Positions 1 through 59,400 of a stretch of 64,000 nt of DNA are shown here, in pieces; positions within the stretch are counted from its first letter, which is position 1, and each line of letters begins with the position of its first letter. The notes beneath the pieces were generated by a model that was not told the origin of the DNA, did no database searches, and worked only from the letters and a program-made list of their open reading frames with translations. The stretch is from Apostichopus japonicus (taxonomy: Eukaryota; Echinodermata; Holothuroidea; Aspidochirotida; Stichopodidae), in the NCBI RefSeq assembly GCF_037975245.1, contig NC_092579.1, positions 937,001 to 1,001,000 on the forward strand, written 5' to 3'. A program made the position numbers and the translations under genes.

Positions 1-612
1 TACATATCAGCTGAGTGTGATATCTCTACAAGCTGGTTATCATCTGTACTATATATGCTAGTTATGTAACTGTATTTTACATATATCATCAATAAGGTTT
101 CTATATATCAGCTGAGTGTAATGTCTCTATCTGCTGGTTATTAACGTTCTATATGCTAGTTATGTAACTGTAGTTTATATATATCATCAAGAAGGTTTCT
201 ACATATCAGCTGAGTGTGACAACTCTACCAGCTGGTTATTGACTGTTCTATATACTGGTTATTAACTGTATTTTACATATATCAATAATAAGGTTTCTAT
301 ATATCAGCTGAGTGTGATATCTCTACCTACTGGGTTTTAACTGTACTATTACTAGTTATGTAACTGTATTTTACATATATCATCAATAACTTTTACATAT
401 CAGATGAGTGTGATATCTCTACCAGCTGGTTATCATCTGTACTATATATGCTAGTTATGTAACTGTATTTTACATATATCATCAATAACTTTGACATATC
501 AGATGAGTGTGATGTCTCTACCTGCTGGTTGTTAACTGTACTATATATACTGGTTATGTAACTGTAGTTTACATATATCATCACTAAGGTTTCTACATCA
601 TGATGTCTCTAC
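1..612. repeat. ~98-bp tandem array starting at the exon-12 donor
   Basis: Six copies of a 96-101-bp unit (anchors ctgag/atgag at 11, 112, 210, 308, 404 and 503). Read on the minus strand, each unit contains a copy of the exon-12 3' end plus donor, e.g. CCAGCAG|gtagagacatca. Five of the six copies keep gtagag. The array abuts the real donor at 612 and runs off the left edge. Confidence 0.9.
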
Positions 613-3600
613 CTGCTGGATATGTCTGCTCCCGTCTTCAGTAGATAGCGTACCACGTGATGATGGCCGTGTTTGCTAGCTAGCAGGAGGGGGGTCATTC
701 CTCTCCTATCAGATTCGTTTATCGTGTCAGGCTGCTCGTGGAGGGCTGCTGCTGTGAACTTCAATTTACCATGTCTGAAACAAACAATCCAGAGAGGTTG
801 TCAATTGACCTGATTAGTCACTTTGACGTATATTTAAAGTAACAAGGAAAATGTTACTATGGATGAAGCATTGGTAGGATACAATTAACCGTGCAATGTC
901 ACTACTCACAAATATAGACATAGTGAACACAGCATGAAATAGTGCAATAAATGTGAAGGCAGGTAAGCGATTACCACTGTGATGTAGTACTTACGACGCA
1001 GCTATGTGTAGAGGGCTTTTTACTTGGTGGTCTTTGCACGTCAAATTTGCTCCCGCATCCAACAGACATCGCATAATCTAATGTAATGTGTAAAGAATAC
1101 ACATTGAACTAACAAACAGCTATTTAATCTCTGATACTGATTAATATCCCTTTAATTAGGTCACAAACAACAGTTCAATGAATATTAGCATAAGGCCCGG
1201 CCTGCATACTCACGATGTGATGGAGAAACGGCATATTGAACATACTATCTGATATTACACAGCACTGTGAATACTTGATAGGTCCAACACATTAACTTGC
1301 TAGTCGAATTAAAGGACAGAACATTCCAAACTTAAAATAAAAGTGAACAATTTATATACATTAGGTCTAACTCTATATGGTGGGATATATTAATGTAAAG
1401 ATAATTAATTTAATAACATTAAAGAGCATTTACCTCCACATTTCCATTTTCAGCAGCATAATGAAGAGGAGTCCATTCCATCTTGCTGGTCGCATTGATT
1501 ATATTAACAGAATTTACGTGTCTTAGCAACATCTTAACAAACTCCACGTGATCCATCTCAACAGCCAAGTGTAAGCAGTTTTTCTGATTGTAATCCAATG
1601 TCTCTATTGCAGAGCCCTCCTTTAACAGTATCCCGCCCGCTTCACAGTTTCCTTTCCATGCAGCACACATTAATGGTGTGAAGCTGTCTTCATCACAGAT
1701 GTCAGGTGGACATCCCTTGGAGATAAATATAGTAAAAGAACAGTAAAACATTGTCTCAAAGTGATAGAAGTGTTATTAATAATTAATTTATTCACAACAT
1801 TTATTTCTTCATATATAGTAGTCTGTTACAAATCACTGCTATAACTCTATGATGTAATTATCTACTATTTATTAACACCCTCACCACCCATCGACTAAAC
1901 AGACTGAAATTCTGAATCCTACCTACCTACGATGAGGTCAGTTCCTTAGATTCAACACAAAACTGAACAAAAAGAATATATAAGGCTCCTATAGAACTCA
2001 CCTAACATATTCACTATAGTATGCGTTGCAAACTTCTCAAGGACAACTAGTGTTGAATGTCGTTCACGGTGCTCTATGTTTATATTATGTCAAACATTAT
2101 TTTATTTCTTTTATTAGAATTGATAGAACATTGCATTAACAATAACATATCGGCCTGAAATGAGGAGCAACGTTATCATCATATCTTGCTTGGTTCCTTC
2201 GATTTACCTTATTTTAAAGTTAAAATATCTTGAGAAAGAAATAGCTATATGAAACATAATCTAACGATACTTATACTCTACCTAAGGTCAACTTTTCCTT
2301 AAAAAGATGGCGATGTCAATTACGTAATCACTTCTGTTTAAAGTATTTATATTATTTATAGCATTAGGAAAATTTAACTTACTCTTATTATGCAACGTGT
2401 ATCGATTCAAGTTTCTATCGGAAGGAGGTGTGAAATTTTCAATCTAAATCATTCTTGCAGAACCTAATCTTGAATTAGGAATATATTTATACACAAATTA
2501 AACACTGTGGAATAATACATGCTACAAACACAAGAACGATTGTCACCTAAATAACGATTGAACCACACGTGAAAAGTAGAAAGCTGCTGATTACATTTTA
2601 ACATGCCTGTTGCAGTAATAGTAGAAAGATGTTGATTACATTTTAACATACCTGTTACAAGCTGTTGCTTACATGTTAACATACCTGTTGAAAGCTGTTG
2701 ATTACATTTTAACATACCTGTTGCAGTAATAATAAAAAGCCGCTGATTACATTTTAACATGCGTGTTGCAGTAATAATAAAAAGCTGTTGATTACATTTT
2801 AACAATCCTGTTACAAGCTGTTGAAGGCTGTTGATTACATTTTAACAACCTGTTATAAGCTGTTGATTACATTTTAACATACCTGTTGCAGTAGTAATAA
2901 AAAGCTGATGATTACATTTAACTTACCTGATACAAGCTGTTGATTACATTTTACATACCTGTTACAAGCTGCTGATTACATTTTAACATACCTGTTACAA
3001 GCTGTTGATTACATGTTGAACATACCTGTTACAAGCTGTTGATTACATGTTAACATACCTGTTACAAGCTGTTGATCTCATTTTAACATACCTGTTACAA
3101 GCTGTTGATTTCATTTTAACATACCAGTTACAGGTGTTGATTACATGTTAACATACCTGTTACAAGCTCTTGATTACATGTTAACATACCTGTTACAAGC
3201 TGTTGATCTCATTTTAACATACCTGTTACAAGCTGTTGATTTCATTTTAACATACCAGTTACAGGTGTTGATTACATGTTTAACATACCAGTTACAAGCT
3301 GTTGATTATATGTTTAACATACCTGTTACAAGCTGTTGATCTCATTTTAACATACCTGTTACGAGCTGTTGATTTCATTTTAACATACCAGTTACAAGCT
3401 GTTGATATCATTTTAACATACCTGTTACAAGCTGTTGATCTCATTTTAACATACCTGTTACGAGCTGTTGATCTCATTTTAACATACCTGTTGCAAGCTG
3501 TTGATTTCATTTTAACATACCAGTTACAAGCTGTCGATATCATTTTAACATACCTGTTACAAGCTGTTGATCTCATTTTAACATACCTGTTACAAGCTGT

Positions 3601-4362
3601 TGATCTCATTTTAACATACCTGTTACATGCTGTTGATTTCATTTTAACATACCTCTTGCAGTAATAATTTCATTGTCTCCACTTGATTATGTAAAGCAGC
3701 TCTGCAGAGGGATTCAAAATGTAATCATGAAAAATAGACAATACCGTAACGAATATGTATACATTATTTTCCAGTTATTCTTGTGACTGCATGAGTTATG
3801 TATTAATCTCTGTAAAAGCGAAAAAACCAAACCCTTATGAAGTTTTAAATTTCCATACAAAAAAAAAATGCAAATGTATTTTTTTTTTTTTAATATTAAT
3901 ATTGCTTTTTACGACCCTAATGTTGCAAGTAACATTTCTGACTCACGTAAAGGGTACGGAGTAAAATAGTTTCTATTTTAGTCAAGGAACAAAGTTCTGC
4001 TGTAATAAAAAGATTGGAAATACATTTGAATGGGGACACACGGGCCCTGTAAACACCAGCGAGTGAGAAGCGAGTCGCCTCTTCCCTATAATCCAACTTA
4101 TCGACCATTGTAATATCACATACCTATGTAAGGGAGACATGTTGTCATTGTCAGCAAGCGTTAGTAACGCCCCGTGGCTGATAAGGTTTCTAGCTATGTC
4201 CCTCGAACCATTCATAGCTGCTATATGAAGAGCACTCTGACCGTTCACTTTAACTGATGTGACGTCACTTCCCTTTTGCAGCAGCATTTGGACAATCTTT
4301 ATGAAGAGGAGGACATTAAAAGATACATCTAATATACCTATACATACACATTATGTACATTA

Positions 4363-4416
<54 letters not shown>

Positions 4417-4445
4417 AATATATATATATATATATACAAATATAT

Positions 4446-4494
<49 letters not shown>

Positions 4495-7400
4495 TACATA
4501 TATATTGCTGATGTCAGAGTAATCTTAGTCTCATCAGCTCATAACTAACCTCGGTGTGTCTTTTCGTTGTTCCTGCATGTAAAGCTGTCTCGCCCCTTAT
4601 ATTCTGTTTACTGAGGTAATCAGGAACGGAGAAGCCATGCTCAGCAGCTGAAATATCGTTGGAATGTGTGACAAATGTTAAAAATAACGTCATATATACA
4701 ATATTTAAATGCAATGAATCTCTAAAACATCTTTAAAAGACTGTTTCTCAATTTACTTATAATTATAGGCACTATTAGAAGATGATGGGGTGTAGGCAAA
4801 ATAATCGAAAATGACTCAACATAAGACTATAGAGTTTGATGTTGCAGGAATGGACATGTTATAAACCATATTATATATATCGCACTTTATGGTATTGCAA
4901 ATCTTTGGTGAACATAACAGATCTATGGTGAACATAACACATATATAGTAAACATAACATATCTATGGTATAAAAAACAGATCTATGGTGAACATAACAG
5001 ATCTATGGTGAACATAACATATCTATGGTGAACATAACATATCTATGGTGAACATACCAGATCTATGGATATCATAACAGATCTATGGTGAACATAACAT
5101 ACATAAAGTGAACATAATATATCTATGGTGAACATAACAGATCTATGATGAACATAACAGATCTATGGCGAACAATACAGATCTATGGTGAACATAACGT
5201 ATATATAGTGAACATAACATATCTATGGAGAACATAACAGATCTATGGTATAAACACTAAAAGGATACGCAGCCTTGCATGAGGACTTGAAATGCAATGT
5301 ATAGCTACTGACGTGTATTATTCAAGAAAAACACACCCAGCATAGAGCCTGGGAAGGGGGCGCAATGAAACAATGATCTTTTATGTAAACATACCATGTG
5401 CAATCAGAATATCGGCAAGTTTCAAATGTCCTGACAAGCAAGCAAAGATTAAAGGAGTGTTCCTGTTACAGTCTTTTGAAAGAATGTCAGCTCCTCTGGA
5501 GATCTGAAGAGAGAAAGTGTAAGTAACAGATGTTTTAAGATATTAAAAATATTTCTAAAATAGGGCATGATAAATGAAGTGATAAGATAACATACACTAT
5601 AACACCTATTATATGATTAAGGGACGCAACCAGTTATTTCATATTAGTACACAAGGTTAAACACCGCTATGTAATCACTATCAATATAATTAATACATTG
5701 TTGCATTGAACCAGTTCGTCACGTGCATCAGTGTCCAAATAAATTAAGCAAATTGTTAGTCCTAGCGAAGTAGGTCCTCTCAGAGGCTGCTTGTGAAGTG
5801 GTAGAGTTTTAAATAGATGGCGCTGTGTATGAATGTATAGAATTTCTTTTTACATACCAGAAGTCGCATCATTTCAACACTGCCGTGGATCGATGAACGA
5901 TGCAGGGCAGTTTGCTGATCTTCGTTCGTCAAGTTCACACTGGCACCCGAATCAAGTAACAGCTTAATGAAAAACAAGTATGAACACAATGACATCATTA
6001 AATCGCAGGTGAAATTATAATTACGTCATTCACCCCTATCACAATTTGTTCAAGATCCACCATTATACTTCCTAACAAACCTTTCGAGAGTTATTTTCAA
6101 ATGTATATATTGTTGTGCTATGTATTGTTGTTACGTATTGTTATGTATTGTTATGTATTCTAATGTATTATTATGTATTGTTATGTATTGTTATATATTG
6201 TTATGTATTGTTATGTGTTGTTATGTATTGACTGTACCAGTCAGAGTCTAAACGGCTAGATAATAAAGACCCTTTGTGCATTCCGTACCAACAATTTCAG
6301 GGTTTGATTATTTTTAAGACAACAACACATTTTAATCTATAAACTATTATTTTTAACAAAATTTTACTTTCTAGTTATGGTTCTCGTAATTTCTCAACAA
6401 GTACGTCACTTTTTAAAAAGCAACATGATACTGTTTCATTAATAAATGAAATAGATATGTTTTATTGAAAAGAAGGTTTCTCATAAGGCTAGGGCACGTG
6501 CAAGCCCCCCCCCCCCCTCACCACGCTTGTCACCCAGGTGCGGCTCCTCTGTCTCTCGTTCTTAGAGCAGGCAAACACAAATAGGCTTAGGGTTAGTTGG
6601 ATGTGAATACTTTGTTTAAATAATTGTCTGCATTGTTGTATATAGTTTCAGAGGATGGCAGCAAGCTAGTAACGACAATCACACATAGCAACCACACGCC
6701 ATTAGCTTCAGAAATGATAGCCATTCGCTTTAAGAACTCGTAAGAATATCATTATAACCACAAAAACATTTTGTGCCAAGTTTTCATAAAAGAGAATCGC
6801 TTTAATGTTTCCTTTTTTCCCCTAAAATCAGGAAGTCAACATATAGAAGTGAAGTAAACAAAATTATAAAATCCAACTTTTTATAAAATTAAGAATCCTT
6901 TTAACTGATTTGTACGTCGTAACTATGTGCCTTCATTATAATTACTGCAAAATAAAAGGTTACGTTTCACAGATGCCTACTTCTGTTTGCTTAACTCAAG
7001 TGACGCAAATCAGACTGATGACAAATTAATTGATTACTGCTCCCCCATCTCTCTCTCTCTCTCTCCATATCTTTCCACCCCTCCCCCCCTCCCCTCTCTC
7101 ACTCTCTCTGGTAAGCTGTCTGGAAAATTGCAGATAATGTGTACTTATGATCGTCTTGGGTAGTTGTAGAGCATTCAGCTCCACAGAGATTGATTTCAAA
7201 CTATTATTTGAGTGTAACTTCGTGATAGAAGATGTGAAAGGCAAATTGATGAGGTTTGTTTTACTGCCTCATGCTACATTTTATGATGATGTTCCGTCGT
7301 AAGTGTGTTTGTCGAATTTGAGACGTTACCCGCTGGAATCAAAAGTACGTTGGCGCAAGATTGTCTGTTAGGCTAAATAACATACGATATAAGCATACAT

Positions 7401-7981
7401 ATTGTATGTTCTTATATTTTATTCCTATAGGATAATCCTTGCCGAAACTTATTTAAGCATGTACAAAGAAAATAAAAATGTTTAACTCCCTTTGTACCTG
7501 CTAACCTTGGTAACAAACAGAGGGTAAAAAGCGGCGGTTAGGAGGGGTGATATACCAGGGATGTGTTACCACATCCACGCAAAGACACGACGTTAAGTAA
7601 GCAAAAAAACAAAACGTCGTTTGATAGCTCGGCAGTCTTTTGCTAATTAGGGGGATCAAACCTTATAGTACATGATCAAATATAGTGTATGGGGTCAGAA
7701 CCCAAAATGTGGGTACCCAAACCTCTCCACGCCTCCGATGTTGCTCTCCACCTACGACTTTGAGAATCATCGGAGACCGACCCCACCCGCCCCACACTCT
7801 CTCCAACATATCTTTGAACTCTTTGAATTGTCACTCGAAATATGCATACATGTAATGTTCCTATGTGATGTTCTTATGTGCAAGGTTTGGTCTATGGAAA
7901 TGTATGTAGAGATGTATATCTTTGTTATTTATATTTATGGTAATGGTGTACAATAATGCCTAATGGGATGATGCATACCTT

Positions 7982-8030
<49 letters not shown>

Positions 8031-11000
8031 GTAATGGTGTACAATACTGCCTAATGGGGTGGTGCATACCTTTGTGATGTATATTTAATGTAATGGTGTA
8101 CAATAATGCGTAATGGGATGATGCATACCTTGTTATGTATATTTAATGTAATGGTGTACAATAATGCGTAATGGGATGATGCATACCTTGTTATGTATAT
8201 TTAATGTAATGGTGAACAATAATGCCTAATGGGGTGATGCATACCTTGTTATGTATATTTAATGTAATGGTTTACAATAATGCGTAATGGGATGATGCAT
8301 ACCTTGTTATGTATATTTAATGTAATGGTGAACAATAATGCCTAATGGGGTGATGCATACCTTGTTATGTATATTTAATGTAATGGTTTACAATAATGCG
8401 TAATGGGATGATGCATACCTTGTTATGTATATTTAATGTCATGGTGTACAATAATGCGTAATGGGATGATGCATACCTTGTTATGTATATTTAATGTCAT
8501 GGTGTACAATAATGCGTAATGGGATGATGCATACCTTGTTATGTATATTTAATGTAATGGTGTACAATAATGCGTAATGGGATGATGCATACCTTGTTAT
8601 GTATATTTAATGTAATGGTGTACAATAATGCGTAATGGGATGATGCATACCTTGTTATGTATATTTAATGTAATGGTGAACAATAATGCGTAATGGGATG
8701 ATGCATACCTTGTTATGTATATTTAATGTAATGGTGAACAATAATGCCTAATGGGGTGATGCATACCTTGTTATGTATATTTAATGTAATGGTTTACAAT
8801 AATGCGTAATGGGATGATGCATACCTTGTTATGTATATTTAATGTAATGGTGAACAATAATGCCTAATGGGGTGATGCATACCTTGTTATGTATATTTAA
8901 TGTAATGGTTTACAATAATGCGTAATGGGATGATGCATACCTTGTTATGTATATTTAATGTAATGGTGAACAATAATGCCTAATGGGGTGATGCATACCT
9001 TGTTATGTATATTTAATGTAATGGTTTACAATAATGCGTAATGGGATGATGCATACCTTGTTATGTATATTTAATGTAATGGTGAACAATAATGCCTAAT
9101 GGGGTGATGCATACCTTGTTATGTATATTTAATGTAATGGTTTACAATAATGCGTAATGGGATGATGCATACCTTGTTATGTATATTTAATGTAATGGTG
9201 AACAATAATGCCTAATGGGGTGATGCATACCTTGTTATGTATATTTAATGTAATGGTTTACAATAATGCGTAATGGGATGATGCATACCTTGTTATGTAT
9301 ATTTAATGTAATGGTGTACAATAATGCGTAATGGGATGATGCATACCTTGTTATGTATATTTAATGTAATGGTGAACAATAATGCCTAATGGGGTGATGC
9401 ATACCTTGTTATGTATATTTAATGTACTGGTGTACAATAATGCGTAATGGGATGATGCATACCTTGTTATGTATATTTAATGTAATGGTGAACAATAATG
9501 CCTAATGGGGTGATGCGTACCTTTGTACAAGTAATTACCTTTGCTATTTCTAGGTATCCATGTGTGCAAGCTATATGTAAGGCTGTGTCTCCGTTAGTAC
9601 CAATGGCATCCACGTTACACCCATGAAGAATTAAAGCACGAGCCACCTCTATATGGTTGAACTTGGAGCATACATGGAGGGATGTACTGCCCTCATTTTT
9701 AGTAGCTATATCTACATCTGCAGAAACAAATAAACACAATAAATGTTAGCCTGGCATGTATATAGTACTAATAAACACAGTAAATGTTAGACCGGCATGT
9801 ATATAATACTAATAAAAACACAATGCATATTACAACGGCATGTATATCATACTAATTAACACAATACATATTAGACTGCCATGTTAATAATACTAAAAAA
9901 CACAGTACATGTTAGCCCCATCATGTATATAGTACTACTACACACAATACATGTTAGCCCAGCATGTATATAGTACTAATAAACACAATACATGTTACAC
10001 CGGCATGTATATAATAATAATAATAAACACAATACATGTTAGACCGGCATGTACATAGTACTAATAAACACAATATATGTTAGACTGTCATGTATATGGT
10101 ACTAATAAACACCATACATGTTAGACCGGCATGTTTATAATAGTAATAAACACAAAATATGTTAGACTGGCATGTATATAATACTAATAAACACAGTAAA
10201 TGTTAGACCGGCATGTATATAGTACAAATAAACACAACACATTTTAGACTGGTATGTATATAGTACTAATAATTACAATGTTAGCCCGGCATGTATATTG
10301 TACTTTGAATCTGGACTAATTAAAGCTACGTCAATTAAGGTTTCTTACCGGCGCCATTGTCTAGTAATAACTGCACAATATCCAAATACCCAAGCTGCGC
10401 AGAAATATGAAGAGGAAACATGCCTTGTTTATTAGTTCGATTAACATTGCTGCAGTCGTCTTCTATGCATTTCTTGACATGTCTAAACGACCTCTTCCGG
10501 ATACACTAAGGAAATAAACAAATTCAGTGCAGACAAATCAGATATGGTTGAGATGAAGAGAAAACAAACATAACGACACGAGCCTTCGAAATGATATTAA
10601 ATAGCAATTTAATCGCGAAGAGAAGCAATTCAAGATATGAATGTTATCAATCAAAGTGAACAAGAACACGCACATCAGTAGCATAATATAAGGGCCTATA
10701 TACAGCAGCGATACGCGCTTTACACAGGCTGGTTATATGGAATGCGTATTGGTAAGATCCGATGCTTGGTTCAGGGTGGTGAATTCTCATGGTAAAATAC
10801 TAGTTTAAATCTAAACATATACTATATTTGAGATATTTATAAAATGTGATAATCGAGGATATGTTGAAATACTTACTTCATGAATACTATGTTTGCGTTC
10901 CACGTTGTTCCCTCTACCAACCGTAACCATGGAAACGAGACTCCCGAAGATATCCTCCGTCGAGTCTTCGGAATCTTGGTCGGCTTTGTTTCTACTAAAT

Positions 11001-13198: not shown

Positions 13199-13259
13199 AA
13201 TCGAAGCTATGAGTAACTTGAACTTTAATCGAGAGCGTCTCCAGTAATCAAGAATATGC

Positions 13260-19440: not shown

Positions 19441-21007
19441 CCTTTTTTATTTTATTTTGCAGAGTAAGTCGACGATGTAGATGCAAAATCAGTTTGATTT
19501 ATTTCAGTCAGGTAGGTCACAAATTCATCGACTTGTTAGGGTCGTTACCGTCTGAGATAAAACATTGGTGATGCTTGTATCCTGGTACATTTGAACAGAC
19601 GCTACTTGTATTGGCGGATGTAATTTAACTTTGTGCATTTCGAGGGAATGACGTCCACTTTGTCAAGATACGTCTCAATGTCGTAGGTTATTCTATACGG
19701 ATAGAAACGATCTCGCGGATCCACTACGGCACCTAACGTTTCAAACGTATCAAATAGGATAGGTGACAATTCGAACACACCTCCCGGGTCCTGGTAACGT
19801 ATAGCGTTTTGCAAAGCGGTTTTGGTGTTTGCAACAGTAGCTGTTCTTTATCAATCGTCTACAACGTGGACAATGAAAAGTATGGGCATAGTGATTCATA
19901 TCGATGATGTAACTAAACTGGCTTTCGTAGTAGTTTTTATACATACTATCCGGAAATCAACAAGGAGATTGACGAAGTAATTTGGCAATGGTTTGAGAAG
20001 GAAGTACTTGACCATCGTTCACATCTTGCGATACGTTTGGTTTCAACTCGAACACGTAAATGTTACATGGAAACCACTTTCAACCTCACCTAGATCTTGA
20101 AAGCAAACGCCTTTGAACGCCTCTGTTTTCAGCCTGTAGCAACTTCTTACCCGGCAAACATGGAGTTTAGAAATTTCTAAAAGTCTGCTCTGTCCCCGAT
20201 TCAATTGGGTAGCCAAAGACCTAAATATGCACAAATTATCTCTATGCTATGCGTCATGGCTAACATGTGTCGCTATTATTCTTTAAATCATCGGGAAGAT
20301 TGGATGGTGGTGCATCAACCAAAGAAAATTCACCCAGCGTATTGACGTAAATGCTCACATTCGTCACACATGCAATTACCCAAACAGATTCCCCCTCTCA
20401 TGTGTACCCAGATCTTCGATATCACTAGTCTTAAGTCGTCGCACAACGTCGTCAATGTCTTGATATGACGGGTACTAGTGAAAACGAACGTTCAAGAGTC
20501 TATGATTATTTCGAGAAGTGTGAAAATACCTCAATTCCCCATTTACTCTATGACAAAACGTATACCAAAAGACATGTTTAGTTTAAATTGGCCTCCTTGA
20601 TCTGTAAACACCCCTCTCCGCAACATCGTTTCCCCATCCAGTTCGTTTAATCTAAAATAATAGACGTCTTGCACGCGGATTGCTCGATGATGGTAGGTTC
20701 TAAAATCTCCCCAGTTTTTTTTCTCGTAGACGTTGCACATCATATCCACAATGTCTCGGCGCACTTCTTTCGTTATATAGTGGACGGGTCCTCCTCGAGG
20801 TCATCAAGGCTCCCCCCTTTCTAAGTCGATTCATCGATCTCCATCTCGTCTTCTGCAACAGAGCGAACCAGCTTCGCAGACTCGACTTGGGATTAAGGCA
20901 ATACAAACATAACAAAAAAATTACTACCGTCAGAGAAACATTGATACTGCCAAACGCTTTATTATCGCCAACATAAAGAAAAGAAATAATAAAAGAGAGA
21001 TGCTCAC

Positions 21008-21280
21008 ATCTTCACATTCACTGGAGCTCTCGTCGGACGTTGTAGCGGCTGAGGTACATTTTGCTGTTCACCTGGATGGTCCTCAACCTCTTCTATTATT
21101 TGCCTATTGGCTGCACACCGACCGCCACTCCGCATATAACGCTTCAGATGTGACGGACTTTTAAATGTCTTCATACATCGTTCACACGCGAGGTTTCGCC
21201 ATACATGCACCCTCCGAACGTGATCTTTCATCTTTCTTGAGTTAAGGAACATTTTTGCTGCACCCAAGTTCTCAAGGTTC
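21008..21280 (-). pseudogene. C2H2-like exon of the decayed PolB element
   Basis: Acceptor cgttatag|GAACC and possible donor gtgagc. It contains ACERCMKTFKSPSHLKRYM, a CxxC followed by a finger-like helix with one His replaced, and a preceding degenerate finger ending in HVRRVH. It is the best preserved part of the element. Confidence 0.55.
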
Positions 21281-22303: not shown

Positions 22304-22404
22304 AATTTTCGGAAAGCTTCTTGTTGTCTTTTTGATCTTTCCAACCTTTTCATTTCCTCTACCGCTGAAATGGGTAGCTCTTCTTCTTTCATCGACAAAT
22401 CCAT
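22304..22404 (-). pseudogene. Probable first coding exon of the decayed PolB element
   Basis: ATG at 22404; charged peptide with LPISAVEEMKRLERSKRQQE; possible donor AAAATT|gtgagt. It joins in phase to the exon at 21805, which starts with ASKQATLEECL. Confidence 0.45.
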
Positions 22405-22409
22405 CACGA

Positions 22410-24640: not shown

Positions 24641-24649
24641 ACTTTGTTG

Positions 24650-44400: not shown

Positions 44401-47400
44401 AATACTAAATAGTATGATAGTAATAATGCCTATGGTACTGATTGCATAACACACATGCGTACCATATAAAGTTTGCATTATCCTGGGGCCACCAACTAAG
44501 AACATTCAATTCTCAAACAATGTTAATATCTTAACTTGCAATGTTGTCGATTCTTACCTGAAATGAACCTTTGGGCTTATCCATCAGAGCTTGTTTATAA
44601 TTTACTAAGTAACTTTCTTTCATTTTCTCTGGTAGCTTTGTGCCTTGTTATGACATGGTTACTATTCATAGTTGAAAACAATCAATCATTATCTAGAAAC
44701 ACAGCTCAGATGACCGGTTAATAGTTAGCTTGTTTCAAGTTAAATCCATAAATCCATACAGACTATGCTTTCTACGTTTAAGCTGGTACAGATTCCTACA
44801 AGCAATGTTCCATGCATAACAGAATTAAAACAAGGAAGTGCTAGGTACTGTAAAACTAGTACATTATTTGTGTCTCGTTGCTCTGAATTTATAAATGTTG
44901 AAACAGAACAGTGAATGTCATCACTAAGTTGTTCTTATAATAAAGGTCAAATTAATAGGAGGGAATATACATGATGATGCAATAAAAATTAAAAAGAAAT
45001 TTCCATTAGGTAAGGAATTACAAATTCATAATGATACAGAAAGGGACCAGTTTATATGTAGTTTGAAATCCAGCATTTGGGTACATAATAGTGGATGTCT
45101 CTAGATAATTCTTGAAGGCAACGAAAGCTATTAAGCTAATTAGTAACTTGTTTCAGTGCCATGCATCCTGTTACGATGTACTATTGGAGTATACTGATGT
45201 AATTATTATTTAAACCATAGTGGATGGGGCCATTTTGTTAGACACAGTCTTTGTTCGGGCACAAAATAGCTTGCAGAACAGCGGATGTAGGATTTAGTGC
45301 TATGGTTGAGTTTAAAAGAGACCTAGTGTTTAGGAGGTTGTGAGGTAAATCCCTTCCCGGCCAAAATAAGGTAGGTCTGTCATCCAGGGGGAAATCCACG
45401 GTTTTCCAATCTGAGATGGTCTTCCAGGCCAAAATACCATAATGGAACATGGTCGTATCGTTTACTGCCCTGACTGTACATCTAGAAAATTGATAAATCA
45501 TTCAAAACTTACTTGTTCTTTATAAATACAGTTGATAGTTCATTATTGGTATCAATGTAGTATTGAGTTCCATAAGAGAATATTATTATTATACATTGTT
45601 TCAGTTTACCCCAAAGGTAGCTCGCAGTTCAGTCAAGAACAGACACTGGATTCTATATTGTTACATTGATGTTAGTTGGAATTTGGTATAGGGGCATCAT
45701 AAAATCTGGCACACATTTGTTACTTGCTATGTTAATAGTATCTACAGTTAACAAGTCTGTATAAACAATGCTATCTGAATGATTAAGTGTCTATTACATT
45801 TATCTTTCATTGTCTGCGCACCTGGCTTGGTACAAAATGGCAGCCTCTTGTCAAGCCCTATTATGTCAGCTGTTTGGCTATGGGCTGGTAACTGGGGGGA
45901 GGGGGTGGGGGGCGGGCAGGAGACAAAGTGGTACAATTGTCACGAGTGCTCTCTAACCTTTGTAGAGCCAAACATGTTAAATATCAAATAACTTTGTGAT
46001 TATTTGCGTTTGTTCTTCACAATGTCCATCTAAAGATAGTATCATTACATAGTTATTCCGGGTGTTAGAACTGTTGTAAAGCAAATAACATTTTTCCCTA
46101 CTCTTCTGTAGTACTGGAAGGCAAATCAAGAGGCTTTGAATCATGTGACGTTGCTGTCGGTCGGTGGAGGTCATCGGGACATCATGGTGAAGTCCGCTGC
46201 CACAGACCTGAATGGGATTGTCTTACCATCTCGTCGTATCTCATCTGTGGTAAGTTACTTATAATTACCTCAAATATAACAATTTGAAAGCTAAACAAAA
46301 TGTGATTTTCATAATTCATATTTGCTGGCTAATATTTTCTATCATGTTTTGCATATGGATATTGAATCTTTAAAATATTATTCTACTAAATGTTGTTGTT
46401 GTTCTACAGTTACTTCACAAATTTTCTGAAAGAGCTGAATCTGCTTTAATATAAAATAAATGTTAGAAGGCTAACAGGCATTGTTTTGTTTCTGTTGGAA
46501 TGTGACTTTCTGGTGAATGTTTCATTGTTTCCATGACTACATTTTGTAGTTAATGATATAAGTCGGTCTTATGAAGGGCATGGCATAAGTTACTGTATAT
46601 TGCTCTGTCCTTATTATAGTGTTTATAGAGTTGAAACTTTCTTTCTTGCAGGATCTGCCTTTGGACTGCTTTGCCAAAATGATTGACACTATCTAATTTG
46701 CTTCCTTTTTTTTCCAAAAGCACCTCGGCCCGACAGATTCTTTCAAAATAGTAGTAGTTTTGTGGTTTGATATGCTTTCTGAGCATGTATGACAGTAGGA
46801 AATTAAATGGTTTAAAACATCTCAAACATGACATCACATTGAAGTATGTTTTTGAATATTTCATATAATTTATTTTGTGTGTATATCTCTGTACAATTTT
46901 CATTGTTAAGTATTTTCTCTAATACCTCAATATGGAGGTACAATATGACTCATTTCATCGTATTTTCTATTTTAACAGAGTATGTCTGTGCCTCATGTTT
47001 GGTTAGCTGCTGATCACCAATGTATTGTCTGGTAAGTACCTTACAAAGCAAACTTAATATGCCTATCACAAGAGGAACATTATAATGGTTCATGTACTTG
47101 TGTTTAATATAGAGAGGTTTCTTTACTTGGTTTTATTGCATGGTGGTTAGCAATTTCAGGAGCAGTTCTGTGATATCATTAGCAATTTTATTAGCAGGGA
47201 TGCTACTAGTCATGAATGGAGACAATTATATTCAAGAGTGACTGGAAGAAGTTTGTGAAGTTAAGGTAATAAATAGGCTGGAGTTCATGGCTCGAGTCAG
47301 GAAAATTACAGGCAATGAACTCAACTGACCTGAAATAAATAACAACTCTGCTTTAGTAGAAACTCTGATAGCAAAGTATGATATCTTTGAAAAATTTGAA

Positions 47401-50400
47401 CATCATTCAACTCTGATCACACGAGAGGGTAGGCATGAGTGTACCCAACATACGGTCCTCTTCTCCCCCGTACTCAATTACTCTTGCTCAGAATTCCTTC
47501 GAGAGGTTTGAAATCTCACCTCTAGATGAGGACTGAATGCAGATACAAACCATTAATCTTATTTCAGTTTCATATGAATACTTCTGTATCCACAACTAAG
47601 TCATAATTTCAAAGTGAAATTATTTCTTTCCAAGAGAAAGAAAAAAACAAAAAAAAACTGGGTTACAGCACCTTCTTAAATTTGCCTTTATTTTCCAATA
47701 TTGTAATTAGCTATGCTTTGTCATTTTAGAGACAACCATGAAGGTAGCGCATATATGAGTTCAAAATTTATGCCAATTGCTGTGTACACAGTAACGTATG
47801 AGCAGATATAAAAAGGATGGTTTCTGGATTCATACATGACAGAATAATGTATCTCCAACTATAAAGTTAAAGATGGTATGAGTCCTGTATTTAACTCAAT
47901 CTTTCTGCAACTATAAAGTTAAAGATGGTATGAGTCCTGTATTTAACTCAATCTATCTCCAACTATAAAGTTAAAGATGGTATGAGTCCTGTATTTAACT
48001 CAATCTATCTCCAACTATAAAGTTAAAGATGGTATGAATCCTGTATTTAACTCAATCTATCTCCATCTATAAACTAAAAGATGGTATGAGTCCTGTATTT
48101 AACTCAATCTATCTCCATCTATAAACTAAAAGATGGTATGAGTCCTGTATTTAACTCTCTGCTCTTCTCCTTCTGGAATAAATCTTTTTACTTTTTATCA
48201 TTCTTTACCAGGTGCAAAGAATTGGTTTTAGCTACAAAGAGGGCGCTGTTTGACATGATTGATCCCAAGACCAGCCTGGTTAGTGCTTTGCTAATACAGT
48301 TTCTGAATTCTAAAAATATGGAACATTTTCTAACATGGTTGTACCAAATATTTCTTCACAGGTAATATGTGTCCCTGATGTTTCATTGTGATCCTTCTAT
48401 ATGCATACGTAGGTCTCCTTAGTATAGTAATGCATTAATTTGACATATTTTGTTGTACTTCATGCAGACAGATTAGACTTCTTATTTGTGATGCATTAAA
48501 TGGGATCCATCTTTCAAGTGTGTGATGGACATGTCCGTATCTCATGCAAGTTATATTGAGACTTTTGTGTTTAATTCAGCTGATTCTCTTCTAAATAGTA
48601 ATGGCATTCACTCTATCATGATTGTCATGTTCAATAATGTGAGTGACATTTTTAATTTTTCTGTTTCTCTCATATCTCCTAACTGGAGATGTTTTCAATC
48701 GGCCCTTCTTCATGCATACAACCTTTGGCCGGTCTTCAAATAAATTGCTCAATTTTATCTATTTATTGTTTTAGATATCAGAGGATGCTGAACACAGGAT
48801 GAAGGTCTTCAGATATCACTTTACAGACCACTCTGGCAGCAAGGTCTATCAAGGACATGTGGAAGATACCATTAACTTCTCAGGTTTTAATTTATATTGG
48901 TTTTATGCGGAAGATACCATTAACTTCTTAGGTTATAATTCATATTGGTTTATGTGGAAGATACCATTAACTTCTAAGGTTATAATTAATCCATTATATA
49001 GAAGGTACCATTAACTTTTCAGGTTATAATTATTGCTTTATATGGAAAATACCATTACCTTCTTAAGGTTATGTTTATTGCTTTATGTGGAAGTTACCAT
49101 TAACTTCTAAGGTTATAATAAATCCTTTATGTGGAAGGTACCATTAACTTCTCTAGTTATAATTATTTCTTTATTTTTTTCTCATCCTTGCGTTTTCCTG
49201 TTTGTTTTTCGTATTTTTTGACCTATTACAGTAGAAATAAGTAGTCTTGTAGCATTTCTACAATTCAAATATTGACTTTATTATTGTTAATTTTTTCTCG
49301 TCAATAATCTTTCACTGATTTTTTGTTTTGTTTTTATTCCTTGTGTGTGTGGGTGTGGGTATCTATGTATGTATGTGACGCCTTGGCTTGTAAAGATAAC
49401 TCAATATCCTAAAGATGGATGGACTTCAAACCTTGTATGTTAATGCACCACATTGAGTTCTCGGCTGCTATTGTTTGTAGCTGGGATGGAAGGTCACACT
49501 AGGTCACCAAAGTTCAAACTGGGAAACCTAGTAAACATGATAACTCAACATTAGAAAGTTGGATGGACATCAAACTTTGGCATGTACATAAAACATAGTT
49601 AGTTCTCGGCTGCTATTGTTTTGGGCTGGGATCAAAGGTCATACTAGGTCACCAGAGGTCAAACTGTGGAAACATTGTAAACATGATATCTCAAGAAGAG
49701 AAGCTTTGATGAATCTCATGCCTGGCCAGTTGATGTCTCATATTGATAGAAGAACCCTACAGTATTTAAATTTGTGGAGGTCAAATGTCATTTGCGGTCA
49801 ACATTTATAGTCAAAATCTGAAAATCTTGTAAACACGGTAACTCAAGAAGTACTGTACTTCATACTTAGTATGTAGCTCCAGCGTGGTGAATGTAAGAAC
49901 CCTATAGAAATTGGTAGAGGCCAAGTGAGGTCAACAATTAAATCAAAATCTGAAAACCTTTTAAACATGATAACTTCAAAATTAAAGCAACAATTAACCT
50001 GTGAATGCTCCAATGCTATGATTTTCTTTGGTGAAGATAGTTTGGTCAAATTCAGTTCAGTTTAGTTTTGTGAAGGGGCTTTATAGGTCTTCAACACAAC
50101 ATACAGTTATCAAGGAATAGGTTGTCACCCAATTATTTTCAAGCCTCTGGGCTTCAAGGCCGGATTAACAGGTTATCTCAAAAGTTGGGGAGGGGCGTGG
50201 GGGTGGGAATTGGCTCAAGGGATCAATAGGTTATATCTCAAATCGTCTCATATTGGCCCTTTTCTCTTTGATTTATACTAGATGACTTTTGCTTTGGCAG
50301 TAAGTTGTGCAAATAATTCACAGTGTATAAACAGTGTCTTGTAGACCTCTCATTCATTAATAACAATTATTAAGGGATGGTTGCAAGGTGGCAGAGCTGA

Positions 50401-53400
50401 TGTGCTATTAAAAAAAACCCTCAAAATTGGTAAAAGAAAATGTCCTATTATTCATACATCTATGTGTCAAGTTTTCACATAGGAAGACTATTGTTTCTGG
50501 GATATCGAAATATTGTGGAATAAAACTTCTGTAATGTAAAATCCTTACCAGTGAATGAAATGATTGATGCCCACAAAGGAGTGCTACAAATAAGAGCTGA
50601 AAATCTCATATCTATTCTGGTTCCCACCTAATTCTTGGACACATTTAACTGGCTTGCTCTACATTAGTCAGATAGTTATTTGGAATTTTGAGTAAATTGT
50701 ATGGCAAGGAATCACAAGGCGAACAGGCTTTCTGGTTTGTATTCTGGTTTGCATTAAGAAATCAGAAGTGATGTAGTATCTCTTCATTCAGAGGTGGACA
50801 TTAATGGAATTCATACTTTCTTATAAACACAAACAACCATGAAGGTTTTTGTTGGAAGAGTGAACAGCACCAATCATTGAAATTATCCATCAATCAATCA
50901 GAAATCTAGTATCTATTCCACTTCACACTTGACATAAATCAAGCAAGAGGGCCTGTATACATTCCTTGCCCGTTTGAAGAGTGTACAGCACCAGTCATTG
51001 AAATAATCCATTAATCAATCATCTATACTACTTCACACTTGACATAAATCAAGCAAGAGGGCCTGTATACATTCCTTTGCCCGTTTGATATGTCTTTGAA
51101 ATGTTTGGGATATTGAAGTTTAGTTTTGAAGTCATGTATTTATTGCTGAGCAGATCTTTAGCCTCATGTATAGAAAGGACGTACTTGTATATGCGTGGTT
51201 AGTACTCACTACTTGTATATGCGTGGTTAGTACTCACTACTTGTAAATGCGTGGTTAGTACTCACTACCTGTAAATTCGTGGTTAGTACTCACTACCTGT
51301 AAATGCGTGGTTAGTACTCACTACCTGTAAATGCGTGGTTAGTACTCACTACTTGTAAATGCATGGTTAGTACTCACTACATGTAAATTCGTGGTTAGTA
51401 CTCACTACCTGTAAATGCGTGGTTAGTACTCACTACCTGTAAATGCGTGGCTAGTACTCACTACTTGTAAATGCGTGGTTAGTACTCACTACCTGTAAAT
51501 GCGTGGTTAGTACTCACTACTTGTAAATGCTTGGTTAGTACTCACTACCTGTAAATTCGTGGTTAGTACTCACTACCTGTAAATGAGTCGTTAGTACTCA
51601 CTGTGTGAAGTGGCAGTCTGTAACTTGACAAAGTAAGGTCCTTCTTTCTGTGTTCTTTCTGTTGTTTCTGTGTTCTTTCTGTTGTTTATAAGAATAAGGT
51701 CCTTTTTTGTGTGTTTATTGGAATGGATCAGTGAATGGTTCATCGTCATACCTTCATAGACACAGTATAGAAGCTATTAGGGGATGTTTTCATCTCCCAG
51801 TAATTATTTCATATTTGATATTATTCTTCAACAGATAAACAAAACTTGACTTTCAAGATAGCCACTGATTCCAGACTCCATATAGCAGCATTTAACAAGG
51901 ACAAGATCACTTATTATCTCTTTCCCATCCCATCGTCCAACCACGGATTTGTAGCTACCACTAAAATTCCCGCAGCTAGATGGATCTTCTTATGCACAAA
52001 AGCCACAACGACAACCTGCGAGGAAGGAATTGACATAACAAAGAGGGGTCGTGTGGTGCCACCCCTTAAGGCATCCGTTCGTGAAATCCATCTGAGTCCA
52101 GAGGAACTGGAAGGTCACAAATTTGTGGTGGTGAGAGTTTTAAGTGGCATAGGGGTGAGTTCTACCATCTTTTCCTTTCGTTTTTCAATTCTGTTCTCGA
52201 TGGTTTGTCACGATGTTTACCTCACTGCGCTTGTATAATCGAGAAATTAATGAGGACTATACATTTAAATGTTTGTAAAGAAAAGGTTTTTACAGTTTTA
52301 CTGATATAGTATGTCTCTCTAACTGTTAGAAAGCTTTTTATGATTTCAAAGAAGATATCCAGGGATATGGTGAAAATGTTCATATGATGATTTTATTTTT
52401 AAGGAGAAAATCTTTATGTTGTTTCTATTTTGTTTATCTTTATATTGTCTCTTTTTTGTTTATTTTTATAGGGTGTGATTAATGCAGAGATGTACGATTA
52501 TGAAGATGGAAACGCTGTGGTTACATTACCACCATTTTTCTCATTACGTAAGGAAGTCATTCTCTAGCATATTGAGGATTTTATTATAAAGTTTTGTAAT
52601 AAACTTGAGAGTCGTTAATACTGAGTGTGAATTTTTCCACAGTACATTATGTCATATGCCGCTATTTATTTTTTGTCTGGTTTTGTCATTATTTTCTTTT
52701 ACCAAATACACCCTACTTTTAGAAGTTTCAAATATTGAATTTCTTTTGTGACTAGGTGAATTGTAATAACTTGAATGACTGTCAGGACCAAACAGAGGAA
52801 TTCTGACTTATGCAGAGATAGTTATAGACTTCACTGAGTCCATTACAAGGAACACTCTCTCAGATAAACAGTTTATCACAATGACTGAGATCATTACAAT
52901 CCTAGACAATAGTCAATTAGCATGATAATTGTGATTATTGCATTCCAGGCAGCACAAATATTAGGTTACCTCAGAATAGTACTGTACACTGTAACATTTG
53001 TATTATATATTAATCTGATATTTCACGGCAGAAAGATTTTGACAGTTCTTAAAATAACTAGGAAACAAATCATGGTCTTTGCCAAACTCTCCCTGCATTG
53101 TGATCACTAGCCACCCACCGTTCCCTTATTCCACGTTAAATATTATGAAGTTATATTATATTTCATCTGGGGTTAACTCTTATACTTTTCCTTCCTGCAG
53201 AACCTCAAACAGTAATGAATGTGACCGGTAAAAGTTACGTCAGTATGGTCCTGGAAGGATTCACATCAGTTTCCACAGCCTATGTAGCAGAACTGGTTCA
53301 TGTAATGTGCCCCTCAGATGTTACAGCAAGTTAGTATTCTCTCATTGGTTAATTGCATGTTATTATTAACACAAATTTCAAAATAGCATGTTTTATCTGT

Positions 53401-56400
53401 AGATTTGCAAAATTTTGACCACATTGTAGTGAAAGGTTACATCCATCATTTTTTTGCAGTAAAATTTGGATTGTACAGTTTTCTCACCTAACGCAATTCA
53501 ATTGACTAGTCACTGCTTCTTACTGTCGATAGAATGTCATGGTAAGCTTTAGCATTATTCTTGATCACATGACCAATTTAAGGTAATGACTGGAAGACAG
53601 TTTGATCTGTTACAATCTTATCTTGAGTAAAACTTCAAAGGTTGTGTAAAATCTGCAAGAAATGCAAAAGGCTACTTTGATCAATTCCCTTTATGTTAGC
53701 TGTTCAGACCTACTACACTGGAGATATGAGTACATTTTGTAATGCTTTTAAACTTCTCATTCCCCCCCCCACCTCCCCCACCCCACCCCTCTTTCTATTT
53801 ATATTCCTCCCTCTTCATCCATATTTTTGCTTCAAATGCGTTTTTGTGATCTTAAAGGACTATTTTATAACCCTCAATATAGCTAGATATGATAATAATT
53901 CTGATCTAAAAATGAGAACTACTTTGAGTAATTCTCTGGCAGTTTGGGAAGAATTATTTCCATGGTATACATTGCCTTGAGAGAATGTTGAAATAGTCTT
54001 TCCATAAAGTTTGGTTTAGCCATGTTCTGCTTAACTGCACACATATAGCTGAACTGTTGCAGCTGCTTTCACTTCTGCAGAAATCAACTCTACGTTACGC
54101 TTTGAAGTTCCTTGGAAAGAAGAGGATACATTCTCAGTTGCAGCCGTAAAGGACACAAACTCCCTCTCCTTGAAACTACAGAGTGGTCGTCCACCCAATG
54201 CTGATAATAAGAGTATGCCTAGACTGTCTGTATACATGGACCCTAGATGTCAGTATGCAGTCACTCTGAGGTACTCACACAAAGAAGGATATGGACAGGT
54301 GAGTACTGTAGAGGGTTTGTCCACCCAATGCTGATAATGAGAGTATGCCTAGACTGTCTGTATACATGGACCCTAGATGTCAGTATGCAGTCACTCTGAG
54401 GTACTCACACAAAGAAGGATATGGACAGGTGAGTTCTGTAGAGGGTTTGTCCACCCAATGCTGATAATGAGAGTATGCCTAGACTGTCTGTATACATGGA
54501 CCCTAGATGTCAGTATGCAGTCACTCTGAGGTACTCACACAAAGAAGGATATGGACAGGTGAGTTCTGTAAAGGGTTTGTCCACCCAATGCTGATAATGA
54601 GAGTATGCCTAGATTGTCTGTATTCATGGACCCTAGATGTCAGTATGCAGTCACTCTGAGGTACTCACACAAAGAAGGATATGGACAGGTGAGTTCTGTA
54701 GAGGGTTTGTCCACCCAATGCTGATAATGAGAGTATGCCTAGACTGTCTGTATACATGGACCCTAGATGTCAGTATGCAGTCACTCTGAGGTATTCACAC
54801 AAAGAAGGATATGGACAGGTGAGTACTGTAGAGGATTTGTCCACCCAATGCTGATAATGAGAGTATGCCTAGACTGTCTGTATACATGGACCCTAGATGT
54901 CAGTATGCAGTCACTCTGAGGTACTCACACAAAGAAGGATATGGACAGGTGAGTACTGTAGAGGGTTTGTCCACCCAATGCTGAAAATGAGAGTATGCCT
55001 AGACTGTCTGTATACATGGACCCTAGATGTCAGTATGCAGTCACTCTGAGGTACTCACACAAAGAAGGATATGGACAGGTGAGTACTGCAGAGGGTTTGT
55101 CCACCCAATGCTGATAATGAGAGTATGCCTAGACTGTCTGTATACATGGACCCTAGATGTCAGTATGCAGTCACTCTGAGGTACTCACACAAAGAAGGAT
55201 ATGGACAGGTGAGTACTGTAGAGGGTTTGTCCACCCAATGCTGAAAATGAGAGTATGCCTAGACTGTCTGTATACATGGACCCTAGATGTCAGTATGCAG
55301 TCACTCTGAGGTACTCACACAAAGAAGGATATGGACAGGTGAGTACTGCAGAGGGTTTGTCCACCCAATGCTGATAATGAGAGTATGCCTAGACTGTCTG
55401 TATACATGGACCCTAGATGTCAGTATGCAGTCACTCTGAGGTACTCACACAAAGAAGGATATGGACAGGTGAGTACTGTAGAGGGTTTGTCCACACAATG
55501 CTGATAATGAGAGTATGCCTAGACTGTCTGTATACATGGACCCTAGATGTCAGTATGCAGTCACTCTGAGGTACTCACACAAAGAAGGATATGGACAGGT
55601 GAGTACTGTAGAGGGTTTGTCCACCCAATGCTGATAATGAGAGTATGCCTAGACTGTCTGTATACATGGACCCTAGATGTCAGTATGCAGTCACTCTGAG
55701 GTACTCACACAAAGAAGGATATGGACAGGTGAGTTCTGTAAAGGGTTTGTCCACCCAATGCTGATAATGAGAGTATGCCTAGACTGTCTGTATACATGGA
55801 CCCTAGATGTCAGTATGCAGTCACTCTGAGGTACTCACACAAAGAAGGATATGGACAGGTGAGTTCTGTAGAGGGTTTGTCCACACAATGCTGATAATGA
55901 GAGTATGCCTAGACTGTCTGTATACATGGACCCTAGATGTCAGTATGCAGTCACTCTGAGGTACTCACACAAAGAAGGATATGGACAGGTGAGTACTGTA
56001 GAGGGTTTGTCCACCCAATGCTGATAATGAGAGTATGCCTAGACTGTCTGTATACATGGACCCTAGATGTCAGTATGCAGTCACTCTGAGGTACTCACAC
56101 AAAGAAGGATATGGACAGGTGAGTACTGTAGAGGGTTTGTCCACCCAATGCTGAAAATGAGAGTATGCCTAGACTGTCTGTATACATGGACCCTAGATGT
56201 CAGTATGCAGTCACTCTGAGGTACTCACACAAATAAAGATATGGACAGGTGAGTTCTGTAGAGGGTTTGTCCACACAATGCTGATAATGAGAGTATGCCT
56301 AGACTGTCTGTTTACATGGACCCTAGATGTCAGTATGCAGTCACTCTGAGGTACTCACACAAAGAAGGATATGGACAGGTGAGTCCTGTAGAGGGTTTGT

Positions 56401-59400
56401 CCACCCAATGCTGATAATGAGAGTATGCCTAGACTGTCTGTATACATGGACCCTATATGTCAGTATGCAGTCACTCTGAGGTACTCACACAAAGAAGGAT
56501 ATGGACAGGTGAGTACTGTAGAGGATTTGTCCACCCAATGCTGCTAATGAGAGTATGTCTACATTACATATTGATGAAACAAAAATACCTGGCAAGTAAA
56601 TAAGGTTGCTTTCGAACTGAGCTAAAACATCTCTCTGTCATTATCATACTTTTCCTCGATGTTAAGTAAAATTGTTTGTCATTCAAATGCTGTTTCCTGA
56701 AAAGGTTAAATTAAAGTAAGACTTACATTTCCAGCTGCTCAAAATTGTTTACGGATGATGTTTCTAGCTTTGTGGGTAATGTGACAGAGGTTTATGTTTG
56801 TGTAACTGTTGCACTGTGTCTAGACAGACAGTGCAAACATGTTATTTGTTATATTGGATCAAAAACACACAAAGAAGTCAAACACTACTTTTCTGGTGAC
56901 TATTTGTGTAGAAAGTGAATTGACTTCCTCAGCACTGACAGTAATAGACAACAATGTCCTAATCTTAATCTTCTATCAGTGCCATTGCATGCTCAGTCTC
57001 TGTAGTAAAGAATGCAATACTGATGACATCAGGTTTGGGATTGAATGAGATCACCTTGGAGTACATCTTTAAAAGTGACAGCTTCCTGGAAAGACTGGCA
57101 ACTTTGTGGATAAAATTCAATAAAACAGATACCTTTTTTGGTAAAGTATAAATTTGTAAAGACATTGTAGTGATGTCATAATCACAGACAAGAATAGACA
57201 ATTCCAATGATCCAACTCTTCTCCCGGTGCCATTAATTTGTCAGTATTTATGGTGAAAGAAGATTTACTGGTGGCATGTCTGAGTTTAGGATTAAAGAAT
57301 GTTATTGTAGCGGAACCTCTTTGAAAATGACAGTTTCCTTTAAGAACTGTCAGCTTCTTGGAGAGGAATAGATTGGGCTGAAGGACAATAGATTCAGTCT
57401 TTAATGCTCCTCTAGTCCTCTTCATAATTGGACAACATGGGGATTTATCTAGACAGAAAGTAAATTGTACTTGATTCCCTCAGAGGATCTCAAACCACAT
57501 ATGAAGGTTGACGTAAAGTGCAATGATATATAACAAAGAAAGTGCTTAGATAATTGAAGTGTTGTGTAGGTACTAGGGTGAAGATACAACTAAAGTGGCA
57601 CGTTGTGGAAAATATGCTTATTTTTATAACTATACCAGGCCTAGAAATTCAGATTATTTACAGGCTAGATGCCAGTGGGTTTTACAGTTTGCCAGTAGAA
57701 CAAAATGGCACTTGTATTTTTCTGCCAGTCAACACATGTTGCTCTTGTATTAATTCACGGAAACTGCTAATGGGATTTGAGTTTAGCAAGTAGATCTTTT
57801 ATGCATTGGCATTTAACAGCAAGTGGCTGTGAATTGTGAATTTTAGACCTGTATATGGTATGTAATGTAAAGCTGGTGTGCAAGAAATATACTGAAATTG
57901 TGGTACGACATGCACCAGTCATATCAGCTGTTAGCTAGCGCTAGTTAGGGATGACCATGCCATCTTGTATGCATGGACCTCTCAGCATCAAGGTGTTGAA
58001 TATTCATTATTGCAACTTCCAGTATGGGTAGGCCTGTGTGTAGCCTGTCATTGTTATTGCAACTTCCAGTATGGGTAGGCCTGTGTGTAACCTGTCATTG
58101 TTATTGCAACTTCCACTATGGGTAGGCCTGTGTGTACTAACCTGTCATTGTATTGCAACTTCCAGTATAGGTAGGCCTGTGTGTAACCTGTCATTGTTAA
58201 GTAGACAACAAAGTCTAATATTGAATATATGTATAATACACAATAAGTGAAAAGAAACACAGTTCATTTTGCTCCAACTTAAAATTTATAGCTTGATCTG
58301 TTGGTGAGATATAAGACTGAAATTTTATTTTATTTGTTTTTTTATTACACAGTGTAATAATTTGTGTTATCATACATGGACAACATTACACGGTCCTTGT
58401 TTTTATTTTCATCTTTCAATGGTCTAATTAGGAGTCTACTACAATTGAAATCACTGTTTATAGTTTTATAATGAAGTCACTAGAGCATACCTTACCCTCA
58501 AATTTAAATTACATCTCTTCTCATAGTTGAATTATCTTCCAAGGTTATATAAATTATTGAGTTTTCCAAGGAAAACACAAAACAGGTGGTGTCATTGATG
58601 TATGACATAACAGACCATTGCACAGTGCACTCAACCAAACAAAATACGGAGAACCGTGGTTACTCAATTCAGTAAAAAGATTTGTCATTCTAACAGCTGG
58701 TGTCTTGCTGAATAGCAACAAAAATATGATAAAAAGTGGTCAAGTTAATAAGTAAATTAAAAACGTGTTGCAGATCATTGAACAAACATTCTAGCATCCA
58801 AGGACTTCGATCGCTTTCTGTTAAGCTGAAATTTGACAGCTCTTTTAGGCATTTCGGCTGTTTTGGGTAATTCGGGAAGTTTTGACAACTTTTCTAATTT
58901 ATCGGTCAAGAAGCTGGAGAATGGAGCAGGGGTTATGTTGCAGTATTGTCTAACATCTGGTCTTGTCTCCAAGGATGATGAGGATGCAGGTGTTTCTGAG
59001 CTCTGGTCAGACAGCTTCAAGGATGGTTTGTCCGTTTCACTGAATTCATAATTTTTCATCTGACGGTGAAACACCATCTGTTTTGACCGCTCGCTGTTCG
59101 TCGTATTCTCCTCCAAGTCTTGCTCCATCTCCCTCAGTTCCTGCCTCCGTTTAGCTTCTTCCACCAGAAGGTAATCTTTAATTTCCTCTCTTGAATGTCG
59201 CCTCGTCTCCCTGTCCTTCTCAGAGTAGATCCTTTTGTCGGGAACTCCGTCATAAAATGCCAGTTTCCAGCCAGATCGAGACGGTCGTCCCTTGAGCAGC
59301 GGTTCGGTATGTGTTTGCAAGGTCCTATATGCCATCTCAATGACCGGGCTGGCCATGTGGTCAGGAAATGTGGCAATTCTCTGGTCTCGTACTGTTTGGT

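Follow-up and report, generated by a model that had tools for sequence, protein, structure and literature searches.

Mirages, tandem duplications of exon-intron boundaries, in genes of the sea cucumber Apostichopus japonicus

Mirages in amphioxus and in a holothurian

Tandem duplications of exon-intron boundaries, known as mirages, were reported from the Adh3 and globin genes of amphioxus, where the account in PMC3087553 finds them at 5' boundaries as well as 3' ones and gives unit lengths from 10 to 160 bp, and PGBD5 and troponin C were added as further amphioxus examples (PMC3902484). As those papers present them, the arrays are minisatellite-like, their units vary by gene (10 to 72 bp in Adh3, ~150 to 160 bp in the globin genes Gb6 and Gb9, 60 and 108 bp in PGBD5), and a splice signal is present in many units, although not in all. 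The Adh3 data and globin RT-PCR described in PMC3087553 suggest that regular splicing is undisturbed by mirages. That paper also offers a model of intron gain; under the Rogers model, as given there, an intron is gained by tandem duplication of exon sequence that contains AGGT. A potato RdRp gene is described as a case of intron gain by tandem duplication (PMC4974935). Intronic minisatellites are further described from a TSSK1-like gene of abalone (PMC6905558) and from earthworm metallothionein (PMC12783039), and in the latter, the duplicated fourth exons are stated to be absent from the transcript.

We analyzed a 64-kb stretch of the A. japonicus genome (C19:937001-1001000), hereafter the window, to which all coordinates refer unless another stretch is named. 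An earlier note on this DNA, which drew attention to arrays at splice donors in two unrelated genes, knew of no described class like them; the amphioxus reports supply that class (PMC3087553). The junction-copying arrays that we describe are mirages, for their units span the exon-intron boundary, are unrelated between arrays and of varied length, retain the splice signal in many copies, and occur at both donors and acceptors, as the amphioxus papers describe for theirs. The host here is a holothurian echinoderm rather than a cephalochordate, the acceptor is represented by one case only, one donor bears as many as 18 copies over 2.4 kb of array, and the arrays are known here from genome sequence alone. 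This study adds a new host group, shows that such arrays recur in unselected genes, and counts copied donors and acceptors for the first time; within the open-licence literature searched, we recognized no account of mirages in echinoderms or in any other group outside amphioxus, where they had been described a few genes at a time. The Rogers model, as PMC3087553 gives it, copies splice signals as the holothurian arrays do, but it places a new intron inside an exon, whereas the arrays described here add, to an intron already present, further copies of its own junction. The abalone and earthworm arrays resemble ours in being tandem units of tens to ~200 bp within introns; unlike ours, they are described in the cited accounts with no copying of the exon end and donor. 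The presence of mirages in several echinoderm genes, including 4 of 57 unselected donors (see below), suggests a possibly wide distribution among invertebrate deuterostomes.

Copied junctions in a TRPA1-like gene and in PGAP1

The exon models of both genes, on which the earlier note relied, hold up. The TRPA1-like gene (613..11623, minus strand) has 11 exons in the window, which join in frame without stops (as listed, 10877-11623, 10349-10505, 9539-9717, 5858-5962, 5395-5503, 4550-4647, 4124-4296, 3653-3701, 1434-1715, 995-1077, and 613-774). In the structure database, the greater part of its ankyrin region aligns to TRPA1 chains, which score lower there than ankyrins and several further proteins with ankyrin repeats, and all eight matches of a downstream exon are TRPA1 chains, in the channel part (best E 2.4e-6), although that exon has no Pfam match. 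A search for TRPA1 relatives in viral contigs gave one pattern match and no confirmed relative. The PGAP1 gene (40788..54298, plus strand) comprises 12 exons that likewise join in frame without stops (40788-40852, 41129-41254, 42974-43065, 43821-43964, 46112-46249, 46979-47031, 48212-48278, 48775-48883, 51835-52154, 52472-52547, 53201-53329, and 54081-54298), matches Pfam PGAP1 at E 5e-74, and finds GPI inositol-deacylase structures; a further exon, which taken alone has no Pfam match, starts near 63043.

Each junction was represented by the 24 bases centered on it, the best copy was sought within 1.5 kb, and a junction was counted as copied at a score of at least 14. Five of the 23 donors in the window (612, 3652, 43964, 48883, and 54298) are copied together with exon sequence at scores of 14 to 24, and the remaining 18 score 10 or less; none of the 23 acceptors in the window is copied, all scoring 9 or less. 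The earlier note had counted six arrays at or near true donors, about a quarter of the introns, with units that copy the exon end and GT. Each of the six arrays is real and lies against or near a donor, five being in the Tandem Repeats Finder (TRF) list and the one at 43965 being clear by alignment, so that a loose reading gives 6/23; the copying of exon ends is confined to five, the array at 9538 being the exception, and the strict reading is 5/23. In the flanks, 10 kb on each side, we placed nine more donors and ten more acceptors. One flank donor, at window coordinate -7655, is copied with its exon end in a 156-bp unit present in 4.3 copies, and an array at 70513 was rejected as a donor copy (junction score 5). 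Across this extended locus, 6 of 32 donors and 0 of 33 acceptors are copied (Fisher P=0.011).

Three minus-strand arrays meet or approach donors of the TRPA1-like gene. At donor 612 (exon 613-774), TRF reports a 98/99-bp array at 1..620 that extends beyond the window (-390..598, 9.9 copies), and by alignment the copies that reach the exon contain 7 to 19 nt of it together with the donor. Donor 3652 (exon 3653-3701; junction score 22) is overlain by a 33-bp array, some of whose units are 45 bp (2576..3660, TRF); up to 22 nt of exon are aligned, with GTATGT, and by eye the exon end recurs nearly exactly in distal 45-bp units. The 58-bp array at 8017..9523 (TRF) starts ~15 nt into the intron that follows exon 9539-9717. 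We rejected it as an exon copy, as donor 9538 scores 6 against at least 14 for copied junctions and the listed copies begin in the intron, with the exception of one alignment (76/105 identical, reaching 48 nt into the exon) whose low identity looks like a TA-rich chance match. A 41-bp minus-strand array of intron sequence only (9729..10304, TRF) almost fills a 631-bp intron of the same gene and stops 11 nt short of acceptor 9717/9718, leaving the exon uncopied. Within a coding exon of this gene lies a 51-bp tandem repeat (11306-11556) that encodes a 17-residue protein repeat.

The PGAP1 arrays are all on the plus strand. Around the end of exon 43821-43964, alignment reveals three diverged copies of a unit of ~95 to 110 bp that includes the donor (43925..44195); the array is missing from the TRF list and is nevertheless clear, with copies at intron positions +68 to +161 (71/94 identical, 58 exon nt) and +174 to +229 (41/59 identical, 38 exon nt). 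In their exon part, these copies have diverged at many positions and a base has been inserted, which is consistent with untranslated passengers. The array over donor 48883 (exon 48775-48883; 48860..49174, TRF) copies 27 exon nt at a junction score of 18, and its unit is 44 bp rather than the 48 bp given before. The largest array (54189..56561, TRF) begins in exon 54081-54298 and comprises 18.3 copies of a 130-bp unit in which the final 110 nt of that exon are followed by 20 nt of intron; the donor-bearing segment CAGGTGAGT is retained in 18/18 full units. Variants are common to non-adjacent units of this array, which fits exchange between units. Differences occupy 13 of 1,870 exon-derived cells against 13 of 340 intron-derived cells, and we did not accept selection as a conclusion from the slower change of the exon part, given that the variable sites are few and common to several units.

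Two candidates near PGAP1 acceptors fall outside the count: a two-copy repeat upstream of acceptor 41128, seen by eye, has a junction score of only 8, and a 26-bp repeat (52410-52470) lies in the pyrimidine tract before acceptor 52472 and leaves the exon uncopied. Read by eye on the minus strand, opposite to that of PGAP1, every unit of a 28-bp array at 51182-51602 resembles donor, branch-site, and acceptor motifs.

What the arrays have in common is position and not sequence, as the earlier note held. When seven units were compared all against all, 18 of the 21 pairs fell within mononucleotide shuffles and 3 lay slightly above all 60 of them, and the TRF periods of junction-spanning arrays range from 33 to 163 bp.

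Copied junctions in unselected exons

A myosin-head family search of the genome (671,581,487 bases, 35 contigs) returned 70 matches, of which 20 were excluded; the other 50 exons, in 48 stretches, were analyzed. Junctions were set automatically from the edges of the family match and are uncertain at, among others, the second donor of L072, L075, L083, L084, and the donor of L098; stretch L094, at a score of 13, just below the threshold of 14, was entered as negative. In the first set, 3 of 40 donors are copied, in arrays of 53 bp x 7.7 copies (L052), of two copies of a ~220-bp unit (L068), and of a unit of up to 163 bp (L069). A second set gave 1 of 10 donors (L096). The corresponding acceptor counts are 0/40 and 1/10, the single case being an acceptor mirage in L098 (C19:15108533-15109491), where three copies of ~125 bp, 98% identical, occupy positions 104-475 and contain the intron end, AG, and the exon start. 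A rule that acceptors are never duplicated had held for the locus and for the first 40 exons; this single case contradicts it.

A random sample of 200 kb (G+C, 37.7%) was also drawn, and its open frames were ranked by coding potential. Ten ranked frames compared with Pfam comprised six SRCR domains, one protein kinase, one VWD, one with a weak coiled-coil match only, and one with no match. Seven SRCR exons of random stretch L011, six of them Pfam-tested and one set by eye, entered the junction counts, and none of their seven donors or seven acceptors is copied. The kinase, VWD, and L025 frames were excluded from those counts, and 95 neurotransmitter-transporter family matches in the genome likewise lie outside them. 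In L025, a 63-bp array (4076-4497) immediately precedes a candidate coding exon near 4516.

Taken together, the unselected exons give 4/57 copied donors and 1/57 copied acceptors (P=0.36). Summed with the locus, the counts are 10/89 donors and 1/90 acceptors (P=0.005), so the difference between donors and acceptors reaches significance only with the discovery locus in the sum. Junction copying in this genome is not confined to donors.

Probable origin and tolerance of the donor arrays

We favor, with a probability of about 0.7, a reading in which these arrays are mirages produced by ordinary local tandem duplication and tolerated at donors since splicing uses the exon-proximal site. An array would be founded when a locally duplicated segment spanned, by chance, an exon-intron boundary, and the minisatellite so founded would grow by slippage or unequal exchange. 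Where the boundary is a donor, the exon, its donor, and the coding sequence would remain whole at the upstream edge, with the extra copies inside the intron; because splicing, we infer, uses only the exon-proximal donor, the array would be nearly neutral and free to drift. Acceptor-spanning arrays arise as well and are apparently rarer, plausibly since an upstream copy of a polypyrimidine tract and AG would be likelier to be used and would leave extra sequence in the mRNA.

How far chance suffices depends on the null against which donors are compared, and the two nulls that we applied disagree. On the coverage null, the share of donors within repeats is close to that of intron positions in the window, the extended locus, and the myosin exons, which we count in favor of ordinary duplication. 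In the window genes, 28.6% of tested intronic positions score at least 14, against which 5/23 donors are no excess (binomial P(>=5)=0.83) and 0/23 acceptors a deficit (P=0.0004). Coverage is 30.0% in the extended locus (P(>=6 donors)=0.95; P(0 acceptors)=8e-6). Near the myosin exons it is 10.0% in the first set and 14.4% in the second, with P(>=4)=0.80 for 4/50 donors and P(<=1)=0.02 for 1/50 acceptors. This null is, however, inflated as a yardstick for origin, because the arrays are long. When arrays were instead placed randomly within the introns of the locus, a comparison that the earlier note had proposed for array edges, donor contacts numbered 6 among 15 arrays where 1.39 were expected (P=0.0007), and acceptor contacts 1 where 1.40 were expected, in a test that counts two donor contacts without exon copying (9538 and 70513), excludes 6 of 21 arrays including one that spans a donor, and sets the end of the last PGAP1 intron in the window 16 nt short. 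Founding units span a donor in 5 of 15 cases against 0.95 expected (P=0.001), with ancestral intron lengths assumed and two of them guessed outright. The independent myosin stretches contain eight arrays, four of which span a junction, three at donors and one at an acceptor, where 1.3 were expected (P=0.023). The array-level tests are in turn weakened because arrays are few, intron lengths are assumed, and the locus was chosen for this very look. Motif counts anchored on the donor itself are circular, and we excluded them from the evidence.

The excess of donor contacts over random placement speaks against plain neutrality, and it supports a duplication process that itself prefers donors, for instance through transcription-linked breakage or replication slippage at intron starts. 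Because the coverage null finds donors no more often repeated than other intron positions, and the array tests carry the limits just given, we regard such a process as unlikely, if worth keeping in mind. The recurrent process proposed in the earlier note survives as recurrence, at -7655 and in the myosin genes, with its preference for donors supported by the array tests and opposed by coverage. We hold equally doubtful the broader form of the claim, in which a junction-linked mechanism makes splice donors the preferred founding sites of tandem duplications in holothurians and leaves several percent of all donors with spare-site arrays. Were it true, such arrays would be a standing source of new exons and introns. 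In a chromosome-level HiFi genome, the origin of mirages and any feeding of intron or exon gain are directly testable.

A simpler possibility is that the pattern was merely spotted, in two genes so rich in minisatellites that some arrays necessarily hit donors. The two genes contain 21 minisatellites under one filter, as against 22 in 200 kb of random stretches under a slightly laxer filter that used only period and score, and 28.6 to 30% of the tested intronic positions are repeated; the locus is unusually minisatellite-rich, and the share of copied donors in the window should therefore not be taken as that of the genome. Copied junctions are nevertheless found in unselected exons as well, and arrays placed randomly within introns rarely reach donors, so that we consider this explanation improbable.

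About as little room is left for spare donors being favored as back-up or regulatory splice sites, which the earlier note had offered alongside toleration. GT stands at the copied junction in many units, without exception in the PGAP1 130-bp array, and GT columns are conserved at 0.75 to 1.0 across eight arrays. Compared with the rest of the unit, however, donor columns are somewhat better conserved in five of those arrays and less in three; when ranked against sliding 9-mers they span 0.37 to 1.0, with L052 first. Five arrays leaning for and three against do not amount to clear conservation, which we reject; the alignments of units point to no clear excess of conservation at spare donors over the unit remainder. 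Units of 44, 130, 53, and 163 bp are, moreover, not multiples of three, and use of a distal donor could shift the frame, an argument that leaves out the units of 33, 45, and 156 bp, which are multiples of three. Toleration of spare donors under ordinary tandem duplication fits these data, and their being favored is unsupported. An artefact of assembly or exon modeling is very improbable, for although tandem arrays are classic sites of misassembly, the published A. japonicus assembly is described as built from PacBio HiFi reads with a contig N50 of 17.2 Mb (PMC10344927), and the exons join in frame with family support.

Other features of the window and of the random stretches are recorded here for completeness. 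Rfam and tRNA scans of the 64-kb window found none. Of seven further frames compared with Pfam, five lie elsewhere in the window, and none has a match. Two minus-strand open frames of 329 and 251 residues (58778-59764 and 24653-25405) have no Pfam match. Minus-strand fragments at 19600-21300 and 31470-31850 resemble, by eye, remains of a Polinton-type polymerase and a LINE reverse transcriptase, and the three such fragments tested have no Pfam match. In the random stretches, L016 contains a long triplet array (8242-9077) that reads on one strand as a run of Asp and His, and long open frames in L010 (5795-9355) and L027 (2579-6589) resemble, by eye, LTR retrotransposon polyproteins.
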